Below, in pieces: positions 1-11,931 of a stretch of 40,862 nucleotides of DNA (within the stretch, counting starts at the first letter, position 1; each line of letters starts with the position of its first letter). Under the pieces are notes generated by a model, which was not told the DNA's origin, did not search any database, and was given only the letters and a program-made list of their open reading frames with translations. The position numbers were made by a program, and so were the translations under genes. Source of the stretch: Gammaproteobacteria bacterium (lineage in GTDB: Bacteria; Pseudomonadota; Gammaproteobacteria; Ga0077536); NCBI GenBank assembly GCA_016191285.1, contig JACPPA010000005.1, positions 1 to 40,862 of the forward strand, in the 5' to 3' direction.

Positions 1-250
1 GCACGTTACGCCAATCACTGATGAAGCGACCCGTCTCTAACCGTTTACCCCACACGCAAAAGCCACTGCGGTCAAAATATAAAACGCGGACTTGTCCGCC
101 ACGCCGATTGACGAACACCTACAACGAACCATCCAAGGGATCTTGTCCCAGCGCGTGTCGCGTCAACGCTTGCAATCCATCAAACGAGCAGCGCAGGTCC
201 GTCGGCTGACCGTACAGATACACTCGATACTGACCTTCGGGGAAAAACAT
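1..250 (-). pseudogene. tnpB: IS66 TnpB (Orf2) fragment with in-frame stop
   Basis: Reading leftward from the ATG at 250..248, the frame gives an IS66 TnpB-like start (MFFPEGQYRVYLYGQPTDLR), then the conserved stretch around residues 36-60 ending in NRRGGQVRVLYFDRSG. Codon 44 (121..119) is TAG, where this family normally has tyrosine in the SLYVF motif. The same frame stays open on both sides of the stop, so a single TAC-to-TAG change is the simplest explanation. The ATG overlaps the TAA of the upstream tnpA (TAATG), the usual translational coupling in IS66. The gene runs off the left edge of the window; about 83 codons are visible. TnpB is an accessory protein of unknown biochemical role required by many IS66 elements, so this copy is probably inactive unless complemented. 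Confidence 0.85.
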
Positions 251-561
251 TAGCCGCGCACCGCATGCAGTAACACGCCGCCGCCGAGATCAAGATGTAA
301 CTCCACCGGCACGCGCGAGGCTGGTGGCAGCGTTCCTAACTCTACAAACGCCGCAGCCCTCCCTACCGCATTCAACGCGCTGGGTGTCGCCACTTCACGC
401 GGCGATGAATCACCGAGCAACGACCGCCAACGGTAAAAGCTCGAGGTGCTGATCGACTCGCGCTGACAAAACGCTTCCACCGACAGCCCACTCTCGGCGA
501 AGCGCGCCATGATTGCGCGCCGCAGCGCCGTACTCGGTCGTGGCCGTTTGCGCTGCTCCAT
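250..561 (-). CDS. tnpA: IS66 family accessory protein TnpA
   Basis: A 103-residue protein whose N-terminal half has the TnpA pattern: a basic start, then a helix-turn-helix around residues 15-48 with SGLSVEAFCQRESISTSSFY followed by RWR. The C-terminal part (FVELG...VELHLDLGGGVLLHAVRG) is also typical of this small IS66 protein. It is the first gene of an IS66-type element, upstream of and overlapping tnpB. An SD-like GGAG precedes the start. The reading frame is intact, unlike its partner. Confidence 0.85.
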   Translation of the reverse strand: MEQRKRPRPSTALRRAIMARFAESGLSVEAFCQRESISTSSFYRWRSLLGDSSPREVATPSALNAVGRAAAFVELGTLPPASRVPVELHLDLGGGVLLHAVRG

Positions 562-626
562 CGTTCGCCTCCAGTCGTTGGTACTGGCGCGCTATTGTCC
601 GCAGCTTCGCTATCAGCAGAAGTACG

Positions 627-638
627 TCGAGGAGTTAC
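627..638 (-). repeat. candidate IS66 terminal end
   Basis: On the minus strand a sequence starting GTAACTCC begins at 638, about 75 bases upstream of tnpA. IS66-family ends commonly begin GTAA, so this may be the outer terminus. It would place the insertion three bases after the stop codon of the neighbouring lipoprotein gene. The opposite end lies outside the window, so this is a guess from position and the first bases only. Confidence 0.3.
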
Positions 639-641
639 CGG

Positions 642-1007
642 TTACTTTCCGGTGACCCGTATCTCATATTTCTCCTCGTGCACAGTGCCTTCTTTCAGCG
701 AAACAAAGATCATGCAATCCGCGTCCGACTGAATAAACGCCAGTGCCTTTTCTTCATTGGACAAGATCCTTGTGGGAGGGAACACGTCGAGGCCTTTAAA
801 TACGCGAACGCCCTTTGAAGAAATCTTGTTTGCGAAAGCGTCTTCGATGGCTCGCTTATGTGCGGGACCATCTATTTGAGCCACGACAAGTGGACAATGA
901 AACGAGCGTCCGACGAAAGCCGGATCGCGATAGGACTCAACCCTTGTTGTCGCGCATGCGGCTAGCATGAGCAGCGATAATGCCGGGACGAATCTGGACG
1001 TTTTCAT
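642..1007 (-). CDS. small cassette-borne lipoprotein, unknown function
   Basis: A 121-residue protein starting at the ATG 1007..1005, preceded by AGGA at good spacing. Two in-frame ATGs further upstream have less convincing sites. The N-terminus is a lipoprotein signal peptide (basic start, hydrophobic core, lipobox LAAC), so the mature protein should be anchored to a membrane by its cysteine. The rest (phenylalanine- and isoleucine-rich, ending EIRVTGK) resembles no family I can name. It lies 32 bases inside the cassette boundary at 1040/1039, the expected layout for the first gene of an integron cassette. Its TAA falls in an AAGTAAC sequence that resembles the first core site of an attC. 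Confidence 0.7.
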   Translation of the reverse strand: MKTSRFVPALSLLMLAACATTRVESYRDPAFVGRSFHCPLVVAQIDGPAHKRAIEDAFANKISSKGVRVFKGLDVFPPTRILSNEEKALAFIQSDADCMIFVSLKEGTVHEEKYEIRVTGK

Positions 1008-1033
1008 TCTTGTCATCCTATGAGTCATGGGGC

Positions 1034-1102
1034 GGCTAACGCGCCGATGAGCGGCGCCGAAGTGCGCAGCGCGAAGGCGTCCGCTCGATTGGCTGGTTAG
1101 GT
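1034..1102 (-). other. integron attC site (69 bp) of the toxin-antitoxin cassette
   Basis: Bounded by GGCTAAC (1034-1040) and GTTAGGT (1096-1102), which are near-complementary core sites of the RYYYAAC / GTTRRRY type. Between them lie imperfect inverted arms around GCGCCGATGAGC and GGCGTCCGCTC. It is strongly similar to the site at 2262-2330 (same length, same arms). On the minus strand, recombination would occur after the G at 1040. The extra-helical bases that fix orientation were not modelled; orientation is inferred from the array. Confidence 0.75.
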
Positions 1103-1148
1103 GCGCGTTCTGCTATTACCATAGGGGCGCGACAATTGGAGATTGGCT

Positions 1149-1385
1149 ATGACCAGTTTAGTGTTAGATCGACTACGGTCGGAAGCTCTGAATTTGTCTG
1201 AGTCTGAACGAGCTGAGCTGGCGCATGCTCTCCTGACGAGCCTCGATGGGCCACCAGACGCAGATGCCCTTGATTCGTGGGATGTTGAGATTTCACGACG
1301 TCTGGCCGCCATAGACGAAGGATCGGCAAAGCTGATTGACCGTGATGAGTTCCGGCGCCGCCTTCGGAATCGTATTGGAAGTTAA
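1149..1385 (+). CDS. type II antitoxin, addiction-module component family
   Basis: A 78-residue acidic protein. The ATG at 1149 is preceded by GGAG at 1138-1141; a TTG two codons upstream is less likely. The pattern LNLSESERAELAHALLTSLD is characteristic of the unstable antitoxin family of RelE/ParE modules (PF09720-like, TIGR02574). The stop is two bases before the GTG of the toxin, so the pair is a two-gene operon. It runs opposite to the other cassette genes and must therefore carry its own promoter, which is usual for toxin-antitoxin cassettes. The antitoxin would bind and neutralise the downstream toxin and probably autorepress the operon. Confidence 0.85.
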   Translation: MTSLVLDRLRSEALNLSESERAELAHALLTSLDGPPDADALDSWDVEISRRLAAIDEGSAKLIDRDEFRRRLRNRIGS

Positions 1386-1387
1386 GG

Positions 1388-1693
1388 GTGCGTCGAATCC
1401 GAATCCTTGCGGAAGCTTCAGACGAAGCCGTCGCAGCAGCGGCTTGGTACGATAGAGAAAGGCCGGGATTAGGAGCCGAATTTGAGCAGGCACTTAGTGC
1501 GGCGCTTGACCTTTTCGAAGAGCATCTAGCGCCACTGGTGCCCGTGCCAGGGCTTTCCGGATCGAGGGGTGCTAAACGCCTACTCCTCAGGCGATTTCCT
1601 TATTCGATAGTTGTACGGGAGTCCGACGAGGAATACTTGGTGGTTGCTGTTGCACATCAATATAGAAGACCAGGCTACTGGAGAGATCGGTAG
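1388..1693 (+). CDS. RelE/ParE-superfamily toxin
   Basis: A 101-residue basic protein starting at GTG 1388, two bases after the antitoxin stop. It has the ParE/RelE architecture: an N-terminal helix pair (EASDEAVAAAAWYDRERPGL, then GAEFEQALSAALDLF), then the beta-sheet region with FPYSIVVR and a C-terminal VAVAHQYRRPGYWRDR, a usual ParE-like ending. Such toxins either cleave mRNA on the ribosome or poison gyrase; the sequence does not say which. It fills the cassette almost to the boundary at 1703. The frame is intact, so an active module stabilising the array is plausible. Confidence 0.85.
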   Translation: MRRIRILAEASDEAVAAAAWYDRERPGLGAEFEQALSAALDLFEEHLAPLVPVPGLSGSRGAKRLLLRRFPYSIVVRESDEEYLVVAVAHQYRRPGYWRDR

Positions 1694-1696
1694 CGC

Positions 1697-1785
1697 ACTT
1701 AACGCTGGTGGTGAGCCGCGCGGGCCAAAAACACAAAATAAAAATGCCGGACCGTCACCGCGTCGGCTCGACTGCCTGGTTATGC
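1697..1785 (-). other. integron attC site (89 bp) of the DUF2283 cassette
   Basis: Core sites ACTTAAC (1697-1703) and GTTATGC (1779-1785) enclose inverted arms: CGCTGGTGGTGAGCCGCGCGG pairs imperfectly with CCGTCACCGCGTCGGCTCG, around an AT-rich centre (CAAAAACACAAAATAAAAAT). On the minus strand GCATAAC contains the TAA stop of the DUF2283 gene, as in many gene cassettes. Confidence 0.75.
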
Positions 1786-1983
1786 GGCAACTTGCTCGTA
1801 CGAGAATTGCGGGGCATCAGCACGCGTGGATGCGTGCTCGATTGTGATTGAGCGAATGTTCCCATGTGCATCGAGATCTAGAATAGTGTTTTCATCTAGG
1901 TCTTTGGTCTCCACAACCGGAACGTCTCTAAACTCAATTAGCATCGTATCGGTATCGGTATCGGCAAAGTAGCGTACTTTCAT
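1780..1983 (-). CDS. DUF2283 family protein
   Basis: A 67-residue protein with the DUF2283 pattern: MKVRYFADTDTDTMLIEF near the start and ILDLDAHGNIRSITIEHAS in the middle. Its function is unknown. These proteins are frequently found next to a DUF4258-like partner and are suspected toxin-antitoxin-like pairs, which is inference. The ATG overlaps the TGA of the upstream gene (ATGA), and the TAA lies in the attC core site at 1779-1785. It is the second gene of the fourth cassette from attI. Confidence 0.8.
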   Translation of the reverse strand: MKVRYFADTDTDTMLIEFRDVPVVETKDLDENTILDLDAHGNIRSITIEHASTRADAPQFSYEQVAA

Positions 1984-2228
1984 GGGTCGAAACTTCTATC
2001 AAAGAATGCGTTATGAATGGTTTCGCCATCTTCCAACAAGACGACTCGCAAGTAGCGATTTTCCATTTCTGGCACTAAGGTCCAGCGCCGGATGCGTCCG
2101 TCTTTTTTTTGAATTAATTCCCGAACCGGTGCGTCGATCGCGCGTTCAATCCATGATTCTTGGATGATGGCGCGATCTGGACGATTGCGGATGGCTTCAA
2201 AATAGCGCGTAACTTTCGCTGATACAGC
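1980..2228 (-). CDS. DUF4258-like partner of DUF2283, start codon unclear
   Basis: An open frame of 82 codons that has no ATG, GTG or TTG before its middle. Translated, it contains VTRYFEAIRNRPDRAIIQES, then WIERAIDAPVRELIQ, RIRRWTLVPEME, YLRVVLLEDGETIHNAFFDR and a final SFDP, matching small proteins usually encoded directly upstream of DUF2283. The likely N-terminus is near the GTT at 2213. Either a non-standard start is used or the start codon has been lost by mutation. The stop overlaps the DUF2283 ATG. The gene lies 39-54 bases inside the cassette boundary at 2268. It may already be a pseudogene. Confidence 0.55.
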   Translation of the reverse strand, partial: AVSAKVTRYFEAIRNRPDRAIIQESWIERAIDAPVRELIQKKDGRIRRWTLVPEMENRYLRVVLLEDGETIHNAFFDRSFDP

Positions 2229-2261
2229 TTAGCAGACGCCACTAGATTGGCTACTTTTGAC

Positions 2262-2330
2262 GCATAACGCGCCGATGAGCCGCGCCGAAGTGCGCAGCAC
2301 GGAGGCGTCGGCTCCAACGGCTGGTTGGGG
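2262..2330 (-). other. integron attC site (69 bp) of the GNAT cassette
   Basis: Core sites GCATAAC (2262-2268) and GTTGGGG (2324-2330) flank arms nearly identical to those of the site at 1034-1102, sharing the central GCGCCGAAGTGCGCAGC. The outer core at 2324-2330 departs from consensus at its last base. It lies 19 bases beyond the stop of the acetyltransferase gene on the minus strand. Confidence 0.75.
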
Positions 2331-2349
2331 GTTTTCTCCATGTCCTTCT

Positions 2350-2928
2350 TCAGTCAATCTTCAGTCGGACAATCGGGCGCTGTGGCCTGTGCCGCGCGAC
2401 TTCCCGGAACCCGGCTTTGTCGTACATCGATTTCGCGCCAACCCACATAAAGCCATCATTTGATCGGGTCGGTTTGTCGATGGGGTAACCCTCAACGATC
2501 TTGGCGCCTTTCTTTTTTGCGTACGCTACGGCCGCTTCTAATAGCGCTTGGGCTACGCGTTGACCACGATATTCCGAAGGAACTACAAAGCAAACCACTG
2601 ACCATACCGGTTGGTCGTCTACCGCTTTCATTACAGATGAGCGCTTGAGGCGACCGTATTCTTCGCGTGGTGCTAGCGAAATCCATCCGACGGGAGTCTT
2701 ACCGCGATATCCGATGAGGCCGGGAATGCTTCCGCCTTCAACTAGGTCTTTCATGGCCAGTCGGTTTTCTTTCGCGCGGGCCTGGCCTTGGCCAAGCTCT
2801 GGTCGCGTTCCGACATACCGACATTCCATGCACCAGCAGGCGCGGGCAAATGAACATCCTTTACCCGCAAACACGGTTTCAAGAGCGGCCCAGCGCTCTG
2901 GAGTTAGTGGGGCGACTGTTAGCTTCAT
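2350..2928 (-). CDS. GNAT family N-acetyltransferase
   Basis: A 192-residue intact protein. The ATG at 2928..2926 has GGAAAG five bases upstream; a TTG four codons earlier is a weaker start. The C-terminal half carries the GNAT acetyl-CoA motif as VVCFVVPSEYRGQRVAQALL followed by EAAVAYAKKKGA, and a late MYDKAGFREV. The N-terminal part (CWCMECR) is typical of a subfamily often annotated simply as acetyltransferase. The substrate cannot be told. Acetyltransferases are among the commonest cassette-encoded proteins. The ATG is 22 bases from the cassette boundary at 2951/2950 and the gene ends just before its attC. Confidence 0.85.
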   Translation of the reverse strand: MKLTVAPLTPERWAALETVFAGKGCSFARACWCMECRYVGTRPELGQGQARAKENRLAMKDLVEGGSIPGLIGYRGKTPVGWISLAPREEYGRLKRSSVMKAVDDQPVWSVVCFVVPSEYRGQRVAQALLEAAVAYAKKKGAKIVEGYPIDKPTRSNDGFMWVGAKSMYDKAGFREVARHRPQRPIVRLKID

Positions 2929-2944
2929 TGAACTTTCCAAAAAC

Positions 2945-3037
2945 GCCTAACGCTCGCGGTGACCTGCGCCGGCCAGCGAGCCATTTGCGGAGCGGCAGGG
3001 CGCATGTCCCGGCGTCAGGTCGACTGCGTTGTTATGT
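2945..3037 (-). other. integron attC site (93 bp) of the second cassette
   Basis: Core sites GCCTAAC (2945-2951) and GTTATGT (3031-3037) enclose long arms: CGCTCGCGGTGACCTGCGCC on one side and GGCGTCAGGTCGACTGCG on the other, with GACCTG/CAGGTC pairing. The consensus GCCTAAC is perfect. It follows the stop of the HNH-like cassette gene by 45 bases on the minus strand. Confidence 0.75.
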
Positions 3038-3082
3038 TTCAGTTTCATTAAGGCACTTACGAGTTGATCAACTCAATTGGCT

Positions 3083-3778
3083 TTAGCGATTTGTCTTGAA
3101 AGAACCTAAGCGGACCAGTTTCTTCGAAATATGCGGGTGAAAGTAGTTCTTTACAATATTCATGAACTCACTATCAATCGAGTAAACCACATCCACAATC
3201 AAACCGCCGAGGCGATAATACCAAGATGCGAAAACGGGGACGCCGTTTCTCATAACGGCGTGAATCGGCGTAATCGCTGCTTCTTTTCGATTGGCGGCTT
3301 CCGGCCGTAAGATGAACGAAAGATAAAGATGCGGGTGAGCTGATTCAGTAATTATTGCCGTCGAGAATGCCCTTAAATCGATCGGAATATTGTGTTCGAC
3401 TATAAGACATCCGAAGATCTTGGCGAAATACAACTGGACTTCAATAGCGCTTTTTTTCGTTCCCCCTGGGAACACGCGGGAAAGATCGAATCTTCGGTTA
3501 CGAGCAATGCTAATTATGTTGGTGGCCAGGTAATGTGATAGGCCTTCCCAGGCAATATCGTGCGGTTGCGTTCTTCTGCTGTTGCAATCGTTACAAATTT
3601 TGGCTTCGAACTGCAGCCGTTACGATTTTATACTCCCGACAGGAATTCGCCTTTTATCTGGAGTTCTGTGGAATACCGGATTCTCAAGCGAAACAGGCCC
3701 GAAAAGTCCACGCAGATCTGACGCCTTGATACGGTGTTCCCGTGAGTCTGCGTTCCCCCCACATATCCAACAGCGCAT
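3083..3778 (-). pseudogene. HNH-like protein interrupted by an in-frame TAA
   Basis: The minus frame starting at ATG 3778 reads MRCWICGGNADSREHRIKAS, a Cys-X2-Cys...EHRIK start. It stops at TAA 3622..3620 (codon 53) and continues in the same frame with FEAKICNDCNSRRTQPHDIA followed by WEGLSHYLA, down to the TAA at 3083. Together these make a 231-codon gene with two CxxC pairs, the arrangement of an HNH-type zinc-containing nuclease-like protein. Only the last 131 codons (from 3475) form a conventional open frame. The ATG is 24 bases from the cassette boundary at 3803/3802, which supports this as the real start. A single nonsense change appears to have killed the gene; a sequencing error is the alternative. 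Confidence 0.7.
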
Positions 3779-3796
3779 CACTTCGCTTTTACTGAA

Positions 3797-3877
3797 ACCT
3801 AACGTCCCGCATAACCCGCCTGCGGAGGCGGCGCGAAGCGACGCTGAAGCAGGTCGGCGTTGATACGGTGGTTAGCC
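3797..3877 (-). other. integron attC site (81 bp) of the first cassette
   Basis: Core sites ACCTAAC (3797-3803) and GTTAGCC (3871-3877) enclose inverted arms: CCGCATAACCCGCCTGC pairs with GCAGGTCGGCGTTGATACGG, around a GC-rich centre (GGAGGCGGCGCGAAGCGACG). On the minus strand GGCTAAC supplies the TAA stop of the HNH gene. An internal GCATAAC at 3809 could be mistaken for the outer core. Confidence 0.75.
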
Positions 3878-4554
3878 GTCATGGTGCATCGAGAGATTGC
3901 TTTTCCCAATGTTGATGTCCTTCGCAAGGGTTTGAAGGTTCTCCATCACTGTCTCGCCGCCCTTGTCCCACGGGACGATGTGGTCAACCTCAAGAATTAC
4001 GGTTGGGTCGGTAGCCGGTGATCGCCCCGTAATGCGGCACTTGAAGTTGTCTCGGCGCATGACGAGGAATTTCAAGCGGTAGTTGATATTGCGCAATGTC
4101 CTCCGAGCAGGGCGATCAGCGCCGGATGGGGGGCGGGGTGGTGGGTTCTCTCCCTCATTAGCCCAACGGACAAAAGCTTCAAGAGCTTTCCGCCAGCCAC
4201 CGAATCGTTTCTCGTACGTCCCAGACGAGAAGCGCGAGGTCTGAGAGGTCAGGTCAGCGTATTTCGGCTGGCGACCAAGATGTGCCCACACCTCAACGAG
4301 GTTGCTAAAGGAAGGAGATCTTCCTCCGAGATGTGCAGGTTTCGCGACTTAGCAAGGCCGGCTCGCTCAAGGGACCGAAGCCATGAGCCGAAGCGCCTCG
4401 CGAGCGACGATGCGTGAAAACGCCCGCGTTCGTTGTACTGATCGATCGTCACAGTGCCGGTTCGAAGTTCTGCTGCGACCCGTTTGAGGTCGTCCAAGAA
4501 CTCATCGTCCGGCACATTCCGGTGATGCGGTTCCAGTTCGTAACGGGCGCTCAT
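3872..4554 (-). pseudogene. HNH endonuclease, frameshifted
   Basis: Two overlapping minus frames together encode one protein. The first (ATG 4554) gives an N-terminal HNH-associated repeat region ending NLHISEEDLL, after which the frame drifts. The second continues NLVEVWAHLGRQPKYADLT, then SRFSSGTYEKRFGGWRKAL, and ends with an HNH domain: CRITGRSP, then ILEVDHIVPWDKGG, MENLQTL and NIGKSN. The join lies near 4300-4310, in CTTCCTTT on the minus strand, where a few extra bases break the frame. The HNH histidines and asparagine are intact. It is the attI-proximal cassette; its ATG is only 13 bases from the junction at 4568/4567, so transcription would depend on a promoter in the attI/intI region. 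Confidence 0.75.
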
Positions 4555-4561
4555 TCGTGAC

Positions 4562-4576
4562 GGCTAACAGTTAAGT
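4562..4576 (-). other. putative attI recombination core
   Basis: On the minus strand ACTTAAC (4576..4570) and GTTAGCC (4568..4562) form two inverted core sites separated by one base. GTTAGCC has the G/TT crossover form and sits exactly where attI should meet the first cassette, between the HNH gene and the divergent intI start. The simple-site spacing is shorter than in classical attI sites, so the exact left core is uncertain. Confidence 0.55.
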
Positions 4577-4584
4577 AGACATCG

Positions 4585-4618
4585 AATCGACGTGATTAAA
4601 TCTGTCGATTTGACGTGT
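4585..4618. repeat. GACGTG repeats in the attI-intI interval
   Basis: GACGTG occurs at 4589-4594 and again at 4612-4617, and AATCGAC (4585-4591) is inverted as GTCGATT (4604-4610). The same GACGTG motif forms part of the palindrome at 4749-4767. The direct repeats resemble, in position, the accessory integrase-binding repeats known beside attI; that role is inference. Confidence 0.4.
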
Positions 4619-4748
4619 TTACGAACAAGCGCTGCTGGGATGAGGCGCGGTCTGCTCCGGGGTCCGCGAAGATTCATTTTACTCATCAGTAACTTGTAGC
4701 ATGAGCGACGCCGTTCGGCCAGACGGCGCTGTGAATGATCATGCACAA

Positions 4749-4767
4749 ACACGTCAGATTGACGTGT
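4749..4767. promoter_or_regulatory. perfect inverted repeat, possible operator upstream of intI
   Basis: ACACGTCA and TGACGTGT form a perfect 8-base inverted repeat with the 3-base spacer GAT, about 90 bases upstream of the intI start. It looks like a dimeric regulator's operator. It does not match the LexA pattern usual for intI genes. No convincing -35/-10 pair could be fixed around it. Confidence 0.35.
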
Positions 4768-4858
4768 ATTTCGCAGCGGCCGGCAAAAAAGTACTGCGAC
4801 CCCATTGCCGGGCCTCGCCTGGTTCAGGTAGCGTGTACGACGAATGTATCGGAGGCAC

Positions 4859-4954
4859 ATGGATGTGGCTTCTTCATCGCCGTTCCTTGACCGCGTGCGC
4901 GCGGCGATTCGGGTTCGTCATCAAGAATGCAGGACATCCAATAAGTTTTGCGAA
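4859..4954 (+). pseudogene. intI: truncated integron integrase (intI) N-terminus
   Basis: From ATG 4859, with GGAGG at 4851-4855, the frame reads MDVASSSPFLDRVRAAIRVR then HQECRT. SPFL..VR.AIR.RH...RT is the N-terminal signature of integron tyrosine integrases. Homology fades after about 30 codons, and the frame continues with unrelated sequence to 5116. The SAM-like core-binding and catalytic domains (roughly 300 more residues) are absent, because an Uma2 gene starts at 5158. Position and direction are those of a genuine intI: next to attI and facing away from the cassettes. The integron should therefore be unable to catalyse its own recombination. Confidence 0.6.
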
Positions 4955-5157
4955 ATCAATTCGCAAACCATGAATGCGCTGCATCACATTTCTGCCAAGC
5001 CGCTGTCTGATTCAGCGGTGTCGATGAAAACGCCTGCGATTGAGGTCGGCGCCTACACCTTGCTGCGGAGTTCGGCTAAGCTTGATCCACCAATCAGATC
5101 GTGCCGCGTTGGCTAACGAATCGCGCGAGAATCTGGGTAATTGAAGAGGCTTCTGAC

Positions 5158-5709
5158 ATGAATGCGATCATCGCGCCCCACCGCTGGAGCTTAGAAGAGT
5201 ACGAGCACATGGTGCGTTCGGGTTTGTTTGAATCCGGCCACCATGTCGAGTTAATCGAAGGCGAGGTGATTGATATGGTGCCGCAAAATGAACCGCATGC
5301 AGCCACATTGACCTTGGTTGATATTGCGCTCCGTCGGGCCTTCGGCACTGGTCACGTATTCCGTCAGCAATCTCCGCTTGCGTTAGGGCTCGCCTCGCAA
5401 CCAGAGCCCGACCTCGCAGTCGTTACCGGCGCGCCGCGCGATTTCATATTGAAACATCCACGAACCTCGGTGCTTGTCGTGGAGATCGCAGATTCAAGTC
5501 TTCTACATGATCGCACCACGAAGTGCGCGCTCTATGCCCGCTACGACATTCCGGTTTATTGGATCGTCAATTTGGTTGATGGGGTGCTCGAAACCTATGA
5601 ACGTCCGATGTCTGGAAGTTACCAGATCCAGCTTGTTTTGCGCCGGGGCGAAACTGTTTATGTCGGTCCCGCACGGACGCCACTGATAGTCGATGAACTC
5701 CTGCCTTAG
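5158..5709 (+). CDS. Uma2 family endonuclease-like protein
   Basis: A 183-residue protein starting at ATG 5158 with GAAGAGG upstream; a longer GTG start at 5101 is less likely. It has the Uma2/DUF820 pattern: RWSLEEYEHMVRSGLF, then HHVELIEGEVIDM, PEPDLAVVTG, TSVLVVEIADSSLLHDRTTK and ALYARYDIPVYWIVNL. The spaced E, PD and VVEIAD residues correspond to the PD-(D/E)XK nuclease fold assigned to this family. Biological function is unknown, and such genes are numerous in cyanobacteria and scattered elsewhere as mobile accessory genes. It lies where the lost part of intI should be, so its arrival or a flanking deletion may have truncated intI. Confidence 0.8.
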   Translation: MNAIIAPHRWSLEEYEHMVRSGLFESGHHVELIEGEVIDMVPQNEPHAATLTLVDIALRRAFGTGHVFRQQSPLALGLASQPEPDLAVVTGAPRDFILKHPRTSVLVVEIADSSLLHDRTTKCALYARYDIPVYWIVNLVDGVLETYERPMSGSYQIQLVLRRGETVYVGPARTPLIVDELLP

Positions 5710-5989
5710 GGTCGGCCCCGATTAACACGGCCGCTGCGCTAGGACGCCACGTTGCGTGAGATCGTTGGGGAAATTAGAGACACCCATCATTTAGAAATTT
5801 ATTTCAAAGGCAGTTTCTTTTGATCGCACCTTTCGCGAATTCGGTGAATCGCGCCAACGGCCGCCGTTCACGGCGCCCGTTCCTGCTGAGCGCATTCGAA
5901 TTCAACTCCCACGACGCTCGATTTCTCGGCACACGGCGGTTATGTTTCCTATACGCCCCTATACACCAGATTTGCGACGAGAAGCGTTC
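5710..5989. other. 280-bp gap, no gene recognised
   Basis: Between the Uma2 gene and the antitoxin. Open frames on both strands are short and show no family resemblance, and no hairpin or promoter stood out. Confidence 0.4.
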
Positions 5990-6322
5990 ATGCATAACTC
6001 TTATATCGTGACCGGACGAACGACAGATGCGCACACGGCGACCTTAGATGAAGATCTGCCGCTGCCGCCAGAACGGGTGTGGGTGCGGGTCGAGCTTCTC
6101 CCGTCATTAAGTCAACGGCCTTACCGCGACGTCATGAAGGTGATCCGTGAGCGCCAAGTTCGGCGAAACCACCAGCCGAAATCCCGCGATGCTGTAGATG
6201 AGTATCTGCGACAGGAACGAGCGAGTTGGGACCAACAGTGCGTATCTATCTGGATTCCGGACCCGTCATCTACGCCGTCGAACAATCTCCCGGATTTTCT
6301 TCCCTCGTCGACCAACGCTTAA
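5990..6322 (+). CDS. VapB-type antitoxin-like protein, possibly with extended C-terminus
   Basis: From ATG 5990 (GAGAAG seven bases upstream) the first 83 residues resemble small antitoxins of PIN toxins: a beta-rich N-terminus (YIVTGRTTDAHTATLDEDLP), then VRVELLP and a C-terminal helix ending DAVDEYLRQERASWDQQ. Such genes normally stop here, overlapping the toxin start. This frame instead runs on for 27 residues into the toxin gene in a different frame. A lost stop codon would explain it. The downstream toxin is broken, so the antitoxin may be a relic. Confidence 0.5.
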   Translation: MHNSYIVTGRTTDAHTATLDEDLPLPPERVWVRVELLPSLSQRPYRDVMKVIRERQVRRNHQPKSRDAVDEYLRQERASWDQQCVSIWIPDPSSTPSNNLPDFLPSSTNA

Positions 6323-6631
6323 CCGCAACCGATGCCGTACTCATCGCTAGCGAGCTGATGCGTAGGGAGTGTCGCGTAAAGCCCCTCCGCGACAACGACG
6401 CAGATCTACTCGGGGACTAGGATCGTTTTTTCGAGGAAAGTACTTAACGAATGTGTTTCTCTCATTCGCCGGGTACTCGATCTGGCGACAGAAATCAGGG
6501 CGCGATACGACTTCAAAACACCCGATTCCATCCACCTCGCCGCAGCTGTCACCGACGGTTGCGATCGATCCCTGACCAACGATCGCCGGCTGGAACGTTT
6601 CCCCGGCATCGCGATAGACGTAATTCAAGCT
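6238..6631 (+). pseudogene. PIN-domain toxin (VapC-like), nonsense and frameshift
   Basis: GTG 6238 begins RIYLDSGPVIYAVEQSPGF, the N-terminal PIN motif with its acidic residue, followed by TDAVLIASELMRRECRVKP and DNDADLLGD. A TAG at 6418-6420 interrupts where homologs have tyrosine (GDYDRFF), and DRFFEE follows in the same frame. The frame then shifts near 6430-6440, and the +1 frame continues VLDLATEIRARYDF, then TPDSIHLAAAV, LTNDRRLERFPGIAIDVIQ, the conserved C-terminal PIN half. PIN toxins are Mg-dependent RNases; this one cannot be made whole. The original stop is lost: the frame reads straight into the repeat element at 6632. Confidence 0.75.
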
Positions 6632-6853
6632 AAGGAACCTCTGAATAAGTCCATCCTGGACTTATTCAGAGTACGGGAAGCAAAAAGTATGATTTTTGCT
6701 TCCCTTCATTTTCAATGGTTTGCAACCATCGAAAATGGCGGCACCTCCCTGTGCCGCGGGAAGCTCTGCCTTCATTTTCAATGGTTTGCAACCATCGAAA
6801 ATGGCGGCACCTCCCTGTGCCGCGGGAAGCTCTGCTTTTTGCAGAGCTTCCCT
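6632..6853. repeat. nested hairpin (MITE-like) repeat element
   Basis: The element begins AAGGAACCTCTGAATAA and contains a series of near-perfect palindromes: CTCTGAATAAGTCC/GGACTTATTCAGAG around ATCCT; GGGAAGCAAAAA/TTTTTGCTTCCC; ATTTTC-ATGGTT/AACCAT-GAAAAT; GGCAC/GTGCC; and finally GGGAAGCTCTGC/GCAGAGCTTCCC around TTTTT. A shorter relative with the same start and the same last two hairpins lies at 27478-27567. No coding capacity. It behaves like a non-autonomous dispersed element; the terminal hairpins could also block transcription. Confidence 0.75.
6705..6836 (+). repeat. tandem duplication of a 66-bp unit inside the hairpin element
   Basis: A unit starting TTCATTTTCAATGGTTTGC occupies 6705-6770 and is repeated at 6771-6836, identical except possibly at the last base. 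Each copy holds one AT-rich hairpin and one GGCAC/GTGCC hairpin. Confidence 0.9.
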
Positions 6854-7001
6854 AAATCCTAAAAGGCCATCTGGACACCATGCTGTCGCAGCCGAGCAGA
6901 GGAGATTGTGTACGCAAGGTATAGAAGGTTCCGAATCAGATACCCCTTTATCGCATCACGCCTATACTCTTAAGCTGCGCAATCAACCTTCGGAGGACCC
7001 C

Positions 7002-7349
7002 GTGAGCGCCAGCCCCGCACCTGATAAACAACATCTGGTATACGCCCGATTCACGGCCGCGTTAAAGGTCCAGATCAAGTCCTTGATCACCCCCGCGCTG
7101 ATCGAAGAGCATCGCTTACGACCGCTGGGGCAGGCTAGCGACGCCTTGGAGCGCGTGAAAAATTATCTGAGTCGGCCACCCACTTATGGGCTGTATTCGC
7201 GGGTCCCGATGCGCGAATGGCAGATCATTCGCTTGCCGATCGCAGGCGGCGCGCCGGCGCAACCCATCGATTCGGTGATTTATCGCAGCGAAGCGGAGGC
7301 CTATCACGCGGTCTTTCTAAGACACCTCGAAGATTTGCTGGCCACTTGA
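7002..7349 (+). CDS. dmfA1: N,N-dimethylformamidase-type alpha (small) subunit
   Basis: A 115-residue protein starting at GTG 7002, preceded by GGAGGA. The open frame extends upstream into the hairpin repeat, but that part is repeat-derived and the strong ribosome site fixes the GTG. It lies ten bases before the large subunit gene, the order known for DMFase (small then large). It is helix-rich (LIEEHRLRPLGQASDALERV, NYLSRPPTYGLYSR), slightly shorter than the roughly 130-residue characterised subunit. In the enzyme the small subunit packs on the catalytic beta subunit and is needed for activity. Identification rests mainly on size, order and the clear identity of the neighbour. Confidence 0.75.
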   Translation: MSASPAPDKQHLVYARFTAALKVQIKSLITPALIEEHRLRPLGQASDALERVKNYLSRPPTYGLYSRVPMREWQIIRLPIAGGAPAQPIDSVIYRSEAEAYHAVFLRHLEDLLAT

Positions 7350-7359
7350 GGAGCACTCG

Positions 7360-9612
7360 ATGATTACGCCCTATCTCACCGGCTACTGCGAAAAGCTCAC
7401 GCTAAAAACCGGCATGACCCAACGTTTCATGATCAGTGGCGAAGGCGTGACCGACGCGGAGGCGCAACTCGTGCGCCTGATCCACGGCGATGAGAATCCA
7501 ACGGGTCCCGGTTTCATCGAAAGGGAAATCAGCGCTACCTGCAACGGTCGCGTGAAGGTGGAACCTCAATTCACCCAAGCCGGCAGCTTCATCGAAGTGC
7601 CCGGTGCGAGCGGTAAAATCACGCTTGATCATGGTTTTTCGGTGTATGCGTTTATTTGGCCGACGACACCGCACAAAGGACGCCAGGGGATCATTACGCA
7701 GTGGTCGGCGGCGGAACGCCGCGGCTTCGCGCTCGGCATTAACCAGCAAGGGCGTCTGGCGTTGTGGCTCGGCAATGGCGTGGAATCGGCCGAAATCGCG
7801 ACGGATAAGCCGCTGCTGGCCAAGCTGTGGTATTTCGTCGCGGCGACGTTCACACCGAGCGCCGGTACCATCACGCTGATTCAGACGCCAGTGATCAACG
7901 CGTACAACTCCTTACTGTCACCCATCGTCCCGCTCGATCACACCTGCCGCGTAACCACTCGTAGCTCGATCGCGCCACAGGCTTGTGCGCGCAGTGTGAT
8001 CTTCGCCGGATATCACACGCAAAGTGGCGGCCATGACTGCATCGATGGTCTCTATAACGGCAAGATCGATCGCGCCGGCTTGCAAGGGCGCGCCTTAACG
8101 CCGACCGAACTCGATGCCCTCTGCGCCGGCAGCGAACCGCCGCCCGATCGCCGTCTCGCGCGATGGGATCCGAGCGCCGGTTACACCGCTGACGGTATCG
8201 GCGATCAACTCGTCGATACCGGGCCACACGGCCTGCACGGCATCGGCTACAACCGCCCGGTGCGCGCGATGACCGGCTACAACTGGCGCGGGCGCGATGA
8301 TTGTTTCCGCCTCGCACCCGAACAATACGGCGGAATCTATTTCAACGATGACGCCATTATCGACTGCCACTGGCGAGCGAACCTGGAATGGACCGTGCCG
8401 TCAGATTTGAAAAGCGGCGTTTACGCGTTACGGCTACGCGCCGGCAACGTCGAGGATCACCTGACATTTTTCGTGCGGCCGGCAGCACCCACTGCCAAGG
8501 TCGCGATGCTGATGCCGACCGCCAGTTATCTCGCCTACGCTAACGAGCGCTTCGTCCTGGACTCACCGGGGGTGGAAATCGTCACGGGGCATCCGCTGGT
8601 CTTGCACGACTGCGATTACTTGCTCGGCGCGCATCCCGAATGGGGTCGTTCGAGCTACGATCATCATCGCGATGGTGCAGGCGTGTGCTATTCGTCGTAT
8701 CGCCGTCCGATCATGGGGCTGCGCCCAAAACATCGTATGGCATCGACCGGCGTGCCGTGGCAGTTCCCGGCCGATCTCTCGATCGTTTACTGGCTGGAGC
8801 ATAGCGGCATTGCCTACGATGTACTGACCGACGAAGACCTGCATTGCGAGGGTGTCGCCGCGCTTAAGCCCTACAATGTCGTGCTGAACGGCACGCACTC
8901 TGAGTATTACTCCGAAGCCATGCTCGATGCGACCGAGGACTATCTCGCGCGCGGCGGTCGCGTGATGTATCTCGGCGCCAACGGTTACTACTGGGTGATC
9001 GCGTTCCGCGACGATGAACCGTGGTGCATGGAAATTCGCAAACTCGATTCGGGATCGCGGGCGTGGCAGGCGGCGCCCGGTGAGTACTACCTGGCGACCA
9101 CTGGCGAAAAAGGGGGGATCTGGCGGAACCGGGGGCGGCCGCCGCAAAAGTTGATGGGCGTCGGCTTCACGTCCGAAGGCATGGACGAATGTAAACCGTA
9201 TCGAAAATTACCTGATGCGGCCGCGCCGGCCGTGGCTTGGGTCTTCGACGGCGTCAGCAACGAGGTCTTCGGTGATACGGGCTTAGCGCTTGGCGGAGCC
9301 GCCGGCCTCGAGCTCGATCGCTACGATCTCGCCTGGGGCACGCCGCCCAATACTTGGTTACTCGCGAGCTCCGAGGGCCACTCGGATCACTATCCACATG
9401 TCGGTGAGGAAGTGATGTTCAATTATCCGGGCTTGGGCGGGACTCAGGATTTCCAAATTCGCGGTGATGTGACTTTGTTCAATACCGTCAACGGCGGCGC
9501 GGTATTCGCCACCGGCTCGATCGCGTGGGGCCAAGCACTCCCGTGTAATGCCGAAGTGGCCCGTATCACGCTAAATGTCCTGCGGCGCTTCATGCAAGAC
9601 GGGCCGGTTTAA
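7360..9612 (+). CDS. dmfA2: N,N-dimethylformamidase-type beta (large, catalytic) subunit
   Basis: A 750-residue protein, close to the roughly 760 of known DMFase large subunits; ATG 7360 follows GAGGAG. Residues about 70-250 form a concanavalin/LamG-like domain (FSVYAFIWPT, WYFVAATFTP, FAGYHTQSGG) and the C-terminal two-thirds is the DMFase catalytic fold. Known DMFase binds a mononuclear Fe through two tyrosines and a glutamate, with a nearby His and Asn. The likely equivalents here are Y393 (LAYANE), Y433 (SSYDHH), E515 and H513 (NGTHSEYYS) and N541 (GANGYYW). Matching is by remembered motif spacing. The reaction would be hydrolysis of an N-alkylated formamide to formate and an amine; the true substrate may differ. 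The 3' end overlaps the convergent regulator gene by 42 bases. Confidence 0.85.
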   Translation: MITPYLTGYCEKLTLKTGMTQRFMISGEGVTDAEAQLVRLIHGDENPTGPGFIEREISATCNGRVKVEPQFTQAGSFIEVPGASGKITLDHGFSVYAFIWPTTPHKGRQGIITQWSAAERRGFALGINQQGRLALWLGNGVESAEIATDKPLLAKLWYFVAATFTPSAGTITLIQTPVINAYNSLLSPIVPLDHTCRVTTRSSIAPQACARSVIFAGYHTQSGGHDCIDGLYNGKIDRAGLQGRALTPTELDALCAGSEPPPDRRLARWDPSAGYTADGIGDQLVDTGPHGLHGIGYNRPVRAMTGYNWRGRDDCFRLAPEQYGGIYFNDDAIIDCHWRANLEWTVPSDLKSGVYALRLRAGNVEDHLTFFVRPAAPTAKVAMLMPTASYLAYANERFVLDSPGVEIVTGHPLVLHDCDYLLGAHPEWGRSSYDHHRDGAGVCYSSYRRPIMGLRPKHRMASTGVPWQFPADLSIVYWLEHSGIAYDVLTDEDLHCEGVAALKPYNVVLNGTHSEYYSEAMLDATEDYLARGGRVMYLGANGYYWVIAFRDDEPWCMEIRKLDSGSRAWQAAPGEYYLATTGEKGGIWRNRGRPPQKLMGVGFTSEGMDECKPYRKLPDAAAPAVAWVFDGVSNEVFGDTGLALGGAAGLELDRYDLAWGTPPNTWLLASSEGHSDHYPHVGEEVMFNYPGLGGTQDFQIRGDVTLFNTVNGGAVFATGSIAWGQALPCNAEVARITLNVLRRFMQDGPV

Positions 9613-10635
9613 CGTGTCGAATCGCGCACGACGCTGGGCTACGCCCGGCGTCGTGCCGTACCATCGCTTGTACGCGCGGACAAAACTCGCGGCGCTTTCG
9701 TAGCCGAGCTCGGTCGCGATGTGCTCCACACGATGCTGACCGGAGGCGAGCAATTGTCGGGCTTGTTCCTGACGCACATCGTCGACCAGCTGCTGATAAC
9801 TCACCTGCGCGGCGCGCAATCGCCGATGCAGCGTGCGTACCGAAACGTTTAATCGGCGCGCCATGTCCTCCACCGTCGGTGGCGTGCGACTGCCCCACGC
9901 CCGGCCAAACGCATCATGCAGCTCGCGGGTCACCACGGTAATAATCGCAAGGCCGCCCGCAATCAACGATGTTTCTTCACAGCGGCGCGCCGCGACCTTC
10001 CAAATGACCGGATCGTGACCTGGATTTGGCGTCTCGCGCCACGCGCTCGGAAAAACCACGGCATTACGCAGCGCTTTGAACCGAAACTCACATTGAAAGC
10101 GCTCGCGATAGATTTCTCGCGCCACGATTGGCGGATGGCTGAGTTCGACGGTCATGCCGTGGGTTACGCCGGCGCGCATCGTTCGTACGTAACGCGATAG
10201 CACCAACAACGGCACTTCGATCAACATCGCGCTAATCTCTTGTAAATCGATCAGGGCGCGGACTTCGACCCGGAACATGCGATCAGCACTACCGACCCGC
10301 CACGCCAAGTAGGGCGCGCGATCGGGAATGAAGCGGACAAAAATGTCCACCCCAGCGCCCAACGTCGGCGCGGTCAGCCACGCGGCCGTCAGCGGTCCGT
10401 GGAAATGTTCGGCGAAGGCGGCCGCCCAGCGATGATGCGCATCCGCCCGCCCCATCAGCGCAGGTTCGTTACGCATGCACGCCAGGGCTTGGCGCACGGT
10501 CACCGGCGCATCACTCTCAAGCAATTGGGCCACGCTCAAGCCGCTGCCTTCGACCAATTTCTGCGGATTGTGCGCGGCTAATGCCATCAGACGCAGGTAG
10601 GCGCTCGGCATCAATAAGTCTTCGATTGCTGACAT
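9571..10635 (-). CDS. AraC family transcriptional regulator
   Basis: About 354 residues from ATG 10635; frames open further upstream to 10710, and a second ATG at 10611 is also possible because no strong ribosome site marks any of them. The N-terminal 200 residues match the ligand-sensing domain of OruR/arabinose-binding-type AraC proteins (LRLMALAAHNPQKL, FVRFIPDRAPY). The C-terminal 100 residues are the double helix-turn-helix: MARRLNVSVRTLHRRLRAAQ, RQLLASGQHRVEHIATELGY, then ESAASFVRAYKRWYGTTP. It lies tail-to-tail with the DMFase genes and head-to-head with the flavin oxidoreductase gene, so it is the obvious candidate regulator of either or both. Confidence 0.85.
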   Translation of the reverse strand: MSAIEDLLMPSAYLRLMALAAHNPQKLVEGSGLSVAQLLESDAPVTVRQALACMRNEPALMGRADAHHRWAAAFAEHFHGPLTAAWLTAPTLGAGVDIFVRFIPDRAPYLAWRVGSADRMFRVEVRALIDLQEISAMLIEVPLLVLSRYVRTMRAGVTHGMTVELSHPPIVAREIYRERFQCEFRFKALRNAVVFPSAWRETPNPGHDPVIWKVAARRCEETSLIAGGLAIITVVTRELHDAFGRAWGSRTPPTVEDMARRLNVSVRTLHRRLRAAQVSYQQLVDDVRQEQARQLLASGQHRVEHIATELGYESAASFVRAYKRWYGTTPGVAQRRARFDTLNRPVLHEAPQDI

Positions 10636-10800
10636 ACGGAGCTGCAATGTGGCAGATAATGAATATAACTTGACACATGTTTGCTGGGCCTCGCAAGCGT
10701 TTGTCCGCAATAATTCTTAAACGTTGACGCTTTTTAAACCGGTGCGCCGCATCCCGCGCGCACCCACGCCCTTGGCCCACCAGGTTCTTGGAGGAATGCA

Positions 10801-11931
10801 ATGCACGTTGGAATGGCTTCAATATTTCAAAATCCCGAACACGAAACCGGAGTCAGCGATTATTCGGTCTATCAAAAAGACATGAAGCTCGCGCTGATGG
10901 CCGAAGGTCTCGGCTTCGAGTCCGTCTGGGGTATCGAACATCACTTCACTGACTATACGATGATGCCGGATGTGGTCGATTTCCTGGCCTTCGTCGGCGG
11001 CGCCTGCCGCAAGGTGAAGCTCGGCACGATGGTCGTCGTTTTACCGTGGAACGATCCGATGCGCGTGGCAGAGAAGATGTCGATGCTGGACGCGATGTCC
11101 GATGGGCGCGCGATTTTCGGCATCGGCCGCGGTCTCGCCCGCGTCGAATTCGAAGGCTTCCGCGTCAACATGGGCGATTCGCGCGAGCGCTTTGTTGAAA
11201 GCGCCGAGATGATCCTGCAAGGACTCGAACAAGGCTATTGCGAATACCAGGGCAAACACATCAAACAACCGCGGGCCCGCATCCGCCCCGAACCGTTCAA
11301 ATCGTTTAAGAATCGCACCTATGCCGCGGCGGTGTCGGCCGAGTCGTCGCAAATCATGGCCAAGCTTGGCCTCGGCATTTTGGTGATCCCACAAAAGCCG
11401 TGGGAAGTGCATGCGCAAGAACTGAACGAGTACAACGATCTATTCGTCAAAATGCACGGGCGCGCCGCGCCGCGGCCGTATGTCGCCGGGTGGGTCATGT
11501 GCGATAAGGATCCCGGGCGCGCGGAAGAGCTCGCGCGTAAGCACATCTCGGGCTATTGGCGCACGGTGGTGAAGCATTACGAAATGCAGAGTAACCATTT
11601 CGCGACCACCAAGGGCTATGAATACTACGCGGCGCTCAATAAAACGGTGGAAGACATGGGCGTCGACGGCATGGCCGATTTCTTCATGAACCTGCAGGTC
11701 TGGGGTACCCCAGAACAATGCTACGAGCGACTCAAAGACATTCACTCACGCACCGATTGCTGCGGTTTTACCGGCGTGTTTAGCTACGCCGGCACCTCGC
11801 TCGAAGTGGGCCGCGCGAATATGAGTTTGTTCGCGAAGGAAGTGCTGCCGGAGTTGAAGAAGCTTGGCGAACGGCCGGCGTTCGATGTCGAAGACGCGCA
11901 CGCACCAGCGTTTTTACGCGCGGTGGGTTAA
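10801..11931 (+). CDS. LLM class flavin-dependent oxidoreductase
   Basis: A 376-residue bacterial luciferase-like monooxygenase with GGAGGAA just before ATG 10801. Family signatures include ESVWGIEHHFTDYTMMPDVV, KVKLGTMVVVLPWNDPMRVA, AEKMSMLDAMSDGRAIFGIG followed by RGLARVEFEGFRV, and a C-terminal WGTPEQCYERLKDI. These enzymes use FMNH2 or F420 to oxidise small substrates (alkanes, sulfonates, amines, nitrogen heterocycles). The substrate is not apparent. Divergent from the AraC-type regulator and followed after 57 bases by a cupin gene, it probably forms a two-gene operon with it. It could act upstream of the amidohydrolase in degradation of an N-containing compound; that is inference from proximity. 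Confidence 0.88.
   Translation: MHVGMASIFQNPEHETGVSDYSVYQKDMKLALMAEGLGFESVWGIEHHFTDYTMMPDVVDFLAFVGGACRKVKLGTMVVVLPWNDPMRVAEKMSMLDAMSDGRAIFGIGRGLARVEFEGFRVNMGDSRERFVESAEMILQGLEQGYCEYQGKHIKQPRARIRPEPFKSFKNRTYAAAVSAESSQIMAKLGLGILVIPQKPWEVHAQELNEYNDLFVKMHGRAAPRPYVAGWVMCDKDPGRAEELARKHISGYWRTVVKHYEMQSNHFATTKGYEYYAALNKTVEDMGVDGMADFFMNLQVWGTPEQCYERLKDIHSRTDCCGFTGVFSYAGTSLEVGRANMSLFAKEVLPELKKLGERPAFDVEDAHAPAFLRAVG

Follow-up and report, generated by a model that had tools for sequence, protein, structure and literature searches.

The window, that is, the whole stretch of DNA analysed here (40,862 nucleotides), is an entire contig (C56), one of the 60 that make up a 5.1-Mb genome, the assembly being listed as 100% complete and 0% contaminated. 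Its left 4.6 kb form an integron-type array, with genes mostly on the minus strand, flanked at the contig's left end by a fragment of an IS66-type element (119-561, minus strand) and on the other side by an attI-like junction (4555-4579, minus strand), immediately 5' of the first cassette gene, and a remnant of an integron integrase gene (intI). The junction was recognised by eye, from similar strings that precede the first cassette at each of the three integron loci in the genome.

Starting from the junction, cassette 1 (4554-3872, minus strand) carries gene 1, which is spread over two frames: a first half with an ATG start and a first HNH_repeat domain (4249-4554, minus strand) and a second half with a second HNH_repeat followed by an HNH domain (3872-4291, minus strand), both delimited from the open reading frame (ORF) list, Pfam matches and alignments to relatives. 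Its stop codon overlaps the attC-like site of the cassette (3797-3877, minus strand; found at both looser and stricter settings). Cassette 2 carries gene 2 (3083-3781, minus strand; ORF list and alignments), a member of a family with the motif series CWICG...EH...CNxxxTQ that is interrupted here by an in-frame TAA (3622-3620), and ends in an attC-like site (2945-3037, minus strand) supported by the attC finder and by a match to another array of the genome, on contig C40, although not returned by the stricter test. Cassette 3 holds an open GNAT acetyltransferase gene (2350-2940, minus strand; ORF list and Pfam) and an attC-like site (2262-2330) assigned to the minus strand from gene order, the finder having scored the opposite strand only. 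In cassette 4, an open frame with no ATG, GTG or TTG near its 5' end (1983-2228, minus strand; weak Pfam match only, E 0.017) is followed by an open DUF2283 gene (1780-1983, minus strand; Pfam) and an attC-like site (1697-1785, minus strand; both tests). Cassette 5 encodes, on the opposite strand (1143-1693, plus strand; ORF list and Pfam), an antitoxin (PF09720) and a ParE-like toxin (below the Pfam cut-off), both open, with an attC-like site at 1034-1102 (minus strand; both tests), and cassette 6 is an open 128-aa ORF (642-1028, minus strand; ORF list) with no Pfam family, whose product we take, by eye, to be lipoprotein-like.

The five attC-like sites within 1034-3877 are what makes this stretch an array. 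The attC finder was home-made and noisy, and an over-strict first version recovered none of these sites; the stricter test returned three of the five, with 8 matches in the 4 kb array compared with 12 in 33.9 kb of background. Sites 2262-2330 and 1034-1102 share 88% identity, and four of the five have counterparts at 76-82% in the array on C40.

Gene 1, a frame-broken member of a recurrent cassette family

The two ORFs of gene 1 (4554-4249 and 4291-3872, both minus strand) lie in different frames, with Pfam matches above cut-off to HNH_repeat (PF18780) in both halves and to HNH (PF01844) in the second, so that the domains of an HNH_repeat/HNH endonuclease are present outside a single open reading frame. 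The original prediction had placed a frameshift near 4305, and alignments to relatives bear this out: those to close relatives stop at first-half residue 81 (4314-4312) and resume in the other frame at 4309, locating the break at about 4315-4305, outside any long single-base run. Among the best 80 of 225 relatives, the second half lay in one open frame in all 80 and the first-half match fell inside the same frame in 79 (the other, L116, had no first-half match), although the relatives were sought with stretches of the second half, which favours unbroken copies and so makes 79 of 80 a biased rate. Three additional relatives (L020, L021 and L045) were likewise all single-frame. Because full-length relatives exist and extend past this point, the end of the first ORF is a break and not a natural end. 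No second copy of gene 1 or of gene 2 was found in the genome.

The closest of these 80 relatives came from a Candidatus Brocadiaceae metagenome-assembled genome (MAG; L046; 74% and 81% identity to the first and second halves), Dechloromonas sp. H13 (L047; 65% and 76%) and an Acidobacteria MAG (L048; 61% and 71%). With synonymous distances saturated in most pairs, non-synonymous distance (dN) alone was used to compare them. For the second half, dN was 0.169 between the window and L046 and 0.197 between the window and L047, compared with 0.204 between L046 and L047; for the first half, the corresponding values were 0.183, 0.229 and 0.203, and the distance to L048 was 0.291 for the window compared with 0.252 and 0.245 for the intact copies. 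Neither half thus carries a clear excess of amino-acid change, and the break therefore looks recent, a sequence error appearing less likely.

The order of domains, two HNH_repeats and then HNH, is common to gene 1 and to the intact relatives L046, L047 and L068, from which the window copy differs in its broken frame. Its HNH domain is without CxxC pairs, as in L046-L048, and we rejected the idea that the domain had decayed for want of these pairs since the closest intact relatives are also without them. Together, L046-L048 and window 3872-4291 form an HNH subgroup in which CRIT or CCIT, and AKEI, AKEV or AKDI, replace the usual CxxC pairs; the second halves of L046-L048 are 71-81% identical to that of the window, with hosts of different phyla. 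Judging from its domains, the whole gene 1 product is most likely a putative HNH endonuclease with two DNA-binding-type repeats.

Relatives of gene 1 were also found beside attC-like sites elsewhere. Such sites lay 3' of 6 of 79 relatives at stricter settings, compared with 6 of 790 shuffles, and 3' of 9 of 79 at looser settings, compared with 30 of 1580 shuffles (both tests left out 4 of 83 loci, L046, L062, L087 and L098, as too short). By form, the sites at L051, L054, L074, L082 and L092 are convincing and those at L020, L047, L099 and L108 doubtful; L056 and L068 have attC-like sites by eye that the finder test missed. A full-length intI lies near two relatives (L074, 62% over 323 residues; L068, 52% over 322), and in L068 the intact HNH relative is the first listed ORF after it. 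HNH_repeat-HNH genes recur, then, as integron cassettes in unrelated bacteria. L046 and the window both carry GTTAG(T/C)CGTCAC just 5' of the start codon (by eye), as expected of one cassette type.

Phage-defence genes have been reported in integrons, and gene 1 and gene 2 had both been proposed to be defence-type genes. In PADLOC, the HNH part of the gene 1 second half and of three relatives matched REase_II (best E 1.8e-9, for L068), and that of L068 also weakly matched PtuB (7.5e-5) and mREase_IV (5e-4). These matches are generic, at the level of HNH, and are suggestive but not specific; a match to IscB in NCBIfam fell far under the cut-off (30.5 compared with 175 bits). Neither of two gene 2 relatives had a PADLOC match. 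The defence-type label is not supported by these matches.

Gene 2, its early stop and an unnamed family

In the frame of gene 2 (3781-3083, minus strand), the TAA at 3622-3620 is codon 54 counted from a GTG and 53 from the next ATG, the latter being the codon at which a stop had been predicted. Relatives have D or K at this position in one alignment (A1) and D, K or N in another (A4). Since full-length relatives exist and continue past the TAA, it is a break rather than a natural end. Conservation was counted over columns in which all relatives agree, with the window excluded: after the stop, the window keeps 20 of 23 such columns in A1 (4 relatives), 8 of 8 in A4 (9 relatives) and 15 of 15 in a third alignment, A5 (5 relatives), and before the stop it keeps 12 of 13, 6 of 6 and 9 of 9, respectively. 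The Cys and His residues are kept in the DNA, with the stop dividing two CxxC pairs. The claim that both broken genes keep their downstream attC and their catalytic or metal motifs stands for the attC-like sites (3797-3877 and 2945-3037), with the qualification that the HNH of gene 1 has none of the usual CxxC pairs and that the Cys/His set of gene 2 is split by its stop.

The family occurs on plasmids (5 records, H1-H5) and viral contigs (6 loci: L144 and L146-L150), with which window gene 2 shares its conserved residues and the length of most members, and from which it differs in its early stop. The longest relatives are on plasmids (94-98% query coverage, 33.6-34.4% identity), and two genomes of the class have relatives over nearly the whole query at 35-40% identity. 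Along the matched stretch, 13 of 14 relatives are open (L016-L019, L041-L044, L144 and L146-L150, of which L148 and L150 are nearly identical), L043 ending about three residues short of the end of window gene 2; the other, L042 (genome G333), is frame-broken near the C end. Of eight relatives tested, only L042/L142 adjoins an attC-like site, which lies far from the intI genes of G333; both attC-linked copies found in the family, that of the window and L042, are broken. No relative of gene 2 was found among the 24 stretches of the first contig scan, and alignment to 398 genomes of the phylum and 36 of the order returned only the window's own copy.

Both cassettes had been described as encoding HNH-type proteins, and this was confirmed by Pfam for gene 1 only. 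None of 10 gene 2 family members matched Pfam, and hence none matched a Pfam HNH family; none of four proteins matched a nuclease in NCBIfam or PHROGs (the nuclease-profile searches used full-length sequences). The full-length protein was modelled with a pLDDT of 87 and a pTM of 0.88, and the N-terminal part alone poorly (pLDDT 53). The full-length model had no PDB match at E <= 0.001 in Foldseek (best VIA Z 2.5 in VIA-align), and one viral protein of similar length in BFVD matched it at E 2.5e-5; a sequence search of the PDB gave one chance-level match (E 0.46). The motif order, CxxC, EH and then CxxCN, presumably resembles that of HNH_5-type nucleases, which is a lead and no more. The whole gene 2 product was most likely a small metal-binding, HNH-like protein, although this is a weaker inference than for gene 1 and draws on the motif only. 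The CWICG...EH...CNxxxTQ family is unnamed in the libraries searched.

Integrase loss and the surrounding block

A local loss of the integrase, as had been proposed, is evident at the right border of the array. Three of 11 IntI-type proteins compared (L127, L129 and L134) align at about 4859-4954 with E <= 0.003, the best alignment (E 1.6e-5) being 55% identical over 31 residues, and the intI remnant is accordingly an N-terminal piece of about 31 codons (4859-4951, plus strand). None of the 11 proteins gave a further significant match in the first 7 kb, and a full-length intI in the window was rejected, only the N-terminal start being left beside the attI-like site. With the attI-like junction directly before cassette 1 and this remnant beyond it, both broken cassettes are attI-proximal, as the original prediction had it.

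Two further loci of the genome carry integron features. Contig C36 (L009, 755-1726) has a full-length integron integrase gene, an attI-like site and at least one cassette, the intI being flanked by purD-, purH-, fis- and dusB-like genes (labels read from ORFs). Contig C40 (L010, about 10230-11021 onward) has a second intI, decayed, accompanied by an array of its own; the first ORF next to this intI is uninterrupted, and a Phd/YefM-ParE pair has stayed intact. The C36 integrase is of a different lineage from the window remnant and might act on the window array in trans.

Damage in the window extends beyond cassettes 1 and 2. The block at 1-7016 that contains the array also includes the intI cut to its start, the startless frame of cassette 4 and an apparent PIN-domain gene that is split between two frames and carries an in-frame stop (6226-6634, plus strand; Pfam PIN matches the second piece only, 6452-6634). 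Open genes of the block are a Uma2 nuclease-like gene beyond the intI remnant (5101-5709, plus strand), the GNAT and DUF2283 genes, the antitoxin/ParE pair and the 128-aa ORF. This block is missing at the site in all four same-genus genomes with a readable flank (G001, G002, G004 and G005), in which DNA similarity ends at window 7017-7086, a helicase-like gene stands in its place (label read from ORFs) and the flank contains no intI; the fifth same-genus genome (G003), with a flank of 1.35 kb only, is likewise without a match. The absence is compatible with gain here or with loss in the relatives. At 6703-6838 of the window is a 70-base direct repeat (98.6% identical), part of which recurs at about 27.5 kb. 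The long gene that neighbours the block (7360-9612) has an open frame and aligns to relatives along all, or nearly all, of 750 residues.

Explanations for the two broken cassettes

We consider it likely that the attI end of an integron remnant has decayed by ordinary mutation under relaxed selection. A chromosomal-type integron has lost all of its intI but the start, leaving a remnant within the block that is missing from same-genus relatives at that site; without a local integrase, its cassettes would have been neither moved nor replaced and the genes they carried would have been dispensable, and cassettes 1 and 2 would then have been knocked out, one by a frame change and the other by a nonsense change. 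Both the cause, relaxed selection, and the order of events, integrase loss before the cassette breaks, are our inference. Such a setting would be ordinary for integrons, because intI pseudogenes, a cost of the integrase and repeated loss of intI have all been reported: a genome survey describes nearly one third of intI genes as pseudogenes (PMC2426708), active integrases are described as costly and as inactivated by frameshift (PMC3510236), and Xanthomonas lineages are described as having lost intI repeatedly while keeping their arrays (PMC12444791). As those accounts present integrons with an inactivated intI, or CALIN arrays (PMC12444791 and PMC2426708), the window shares with them its attI, attC array, truncated integrase and retained cassettes, and differs from them in the additional breakage of its first two cassette genes and in belonging to a genome with three integron loci, one of which has a full-length intI from another lineage. 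Three points count against decay: the C36 integrase may act in trans, so the array is perhaps not fully immobile; decay is non-uniform, cassettes 3, 5 and 6 being open and both broken ones nearest attI; and the distance of the window to L048 over the first half of gene 1 is above those of the intact copies, in one comparison.

It is improbable that either break, or both, arose as an error of sequencing or assembly in genes that are intact in the organism. Conservation on either side of each break is about that of intact relatives, as an error would give, but the gene 2 lesion is a substitution-type stop and that of gene 1 lies outside long single-base runs; the assembly, in 60 contigs, is listed as 100% complete and 0% contaminated; the long neighbour at 7360-9612 is open over its 750 or nearly 750 matched residues; and two more genes of the block, intI and the PIN-type gene, are broken. 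Still less probable, and by a long way, is that the broken forms are functional, through a useful short or restarted product or through frameshifting or readthrough that yields the whole protein. As function would predict, gene 1 keeps its two halves and gene 2 most of its conserved residues; against this, the stop of gene 2 parts its two CxxC pairs, and gene 1 relatives have one uninterrupted frame in 79 of the best 80 of 225 (the other without a first-half match) and in all 3 additional ones, so recoding is not a trait of the gene 1 family.

The original prediction held that adjacent nuclease cassettes, in the most expressed positions, were selected against after integrase loss. On such a reading, genes expressed next to attI, no longer excised and harmful to the cell, would have been inactivated. 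The two broken cassettes are indeed the two nearest attI, with cassettes 3, 5 and 6 open; with 2 of 8 array genes broken, chance alone would put both breaks in the first two in 1 of 28 cases, or in 3 of 28 when the startless gene is counted (hand counts, made post hoc). Consistent with selection, too, are the restriction-type PADLOC matches of gene 1 and its relatives and the frame-broken state of L042, the sole gene 2 relative of eight tested that lies beside an attC-like site. However, the damage also reaches intI and the apparent PIN-type gene but spares the Uma2 nuclease-like gene, and intact HNH relatives adjoin attC-like sites, that of L068 coming first after a full-length intI. As for expression, no sigma-70-like site turned up between 3700 and 5150 in a simple scan for the consensus, compared with 0.7 expected from shuffles, which gives the claim of most expressed positions no backing, although a promoter may lie there. 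Selection against costly nuclease genes therefore seems an unlikely cause. A more elaborate form, which we regard as somewhat more doubtful still, would have HNH_repeat-HNH proteins as integron-adapted nucleases, moved as cassettes between phyla and acting on invading DNA, that became a liability after integrase loss and were knocked out first, the gene 2 family likewise. Plain decay in a dispensable remnant is favoured over the possible adaptive reading of defence genes selected against after integrase loss.

As a case of decay, the locus is mostly a clean example of what follows integrase loss, and the breakage looks ordinary; in the titles and abstracts of the literature searched, we found no report of attI-proximal nuclease cassettes broken in pairs. 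Should such cassettes prove to be the first to break in many integrons, their breakage could serve as a measure of the cost of cassette-borne nucleases. Useful in either case are the recurrence of HNH_repeat-HNH genes beside attC in unrelated bacteria and the presence on plasmids and viral contigs of a gene 2 family that is nameless in the searched libraries. On one of these viral contigs (L147, 1242-4682), the gene 2 relative lies between repressor-like and recombinase-like genes (labels read from ORFs).
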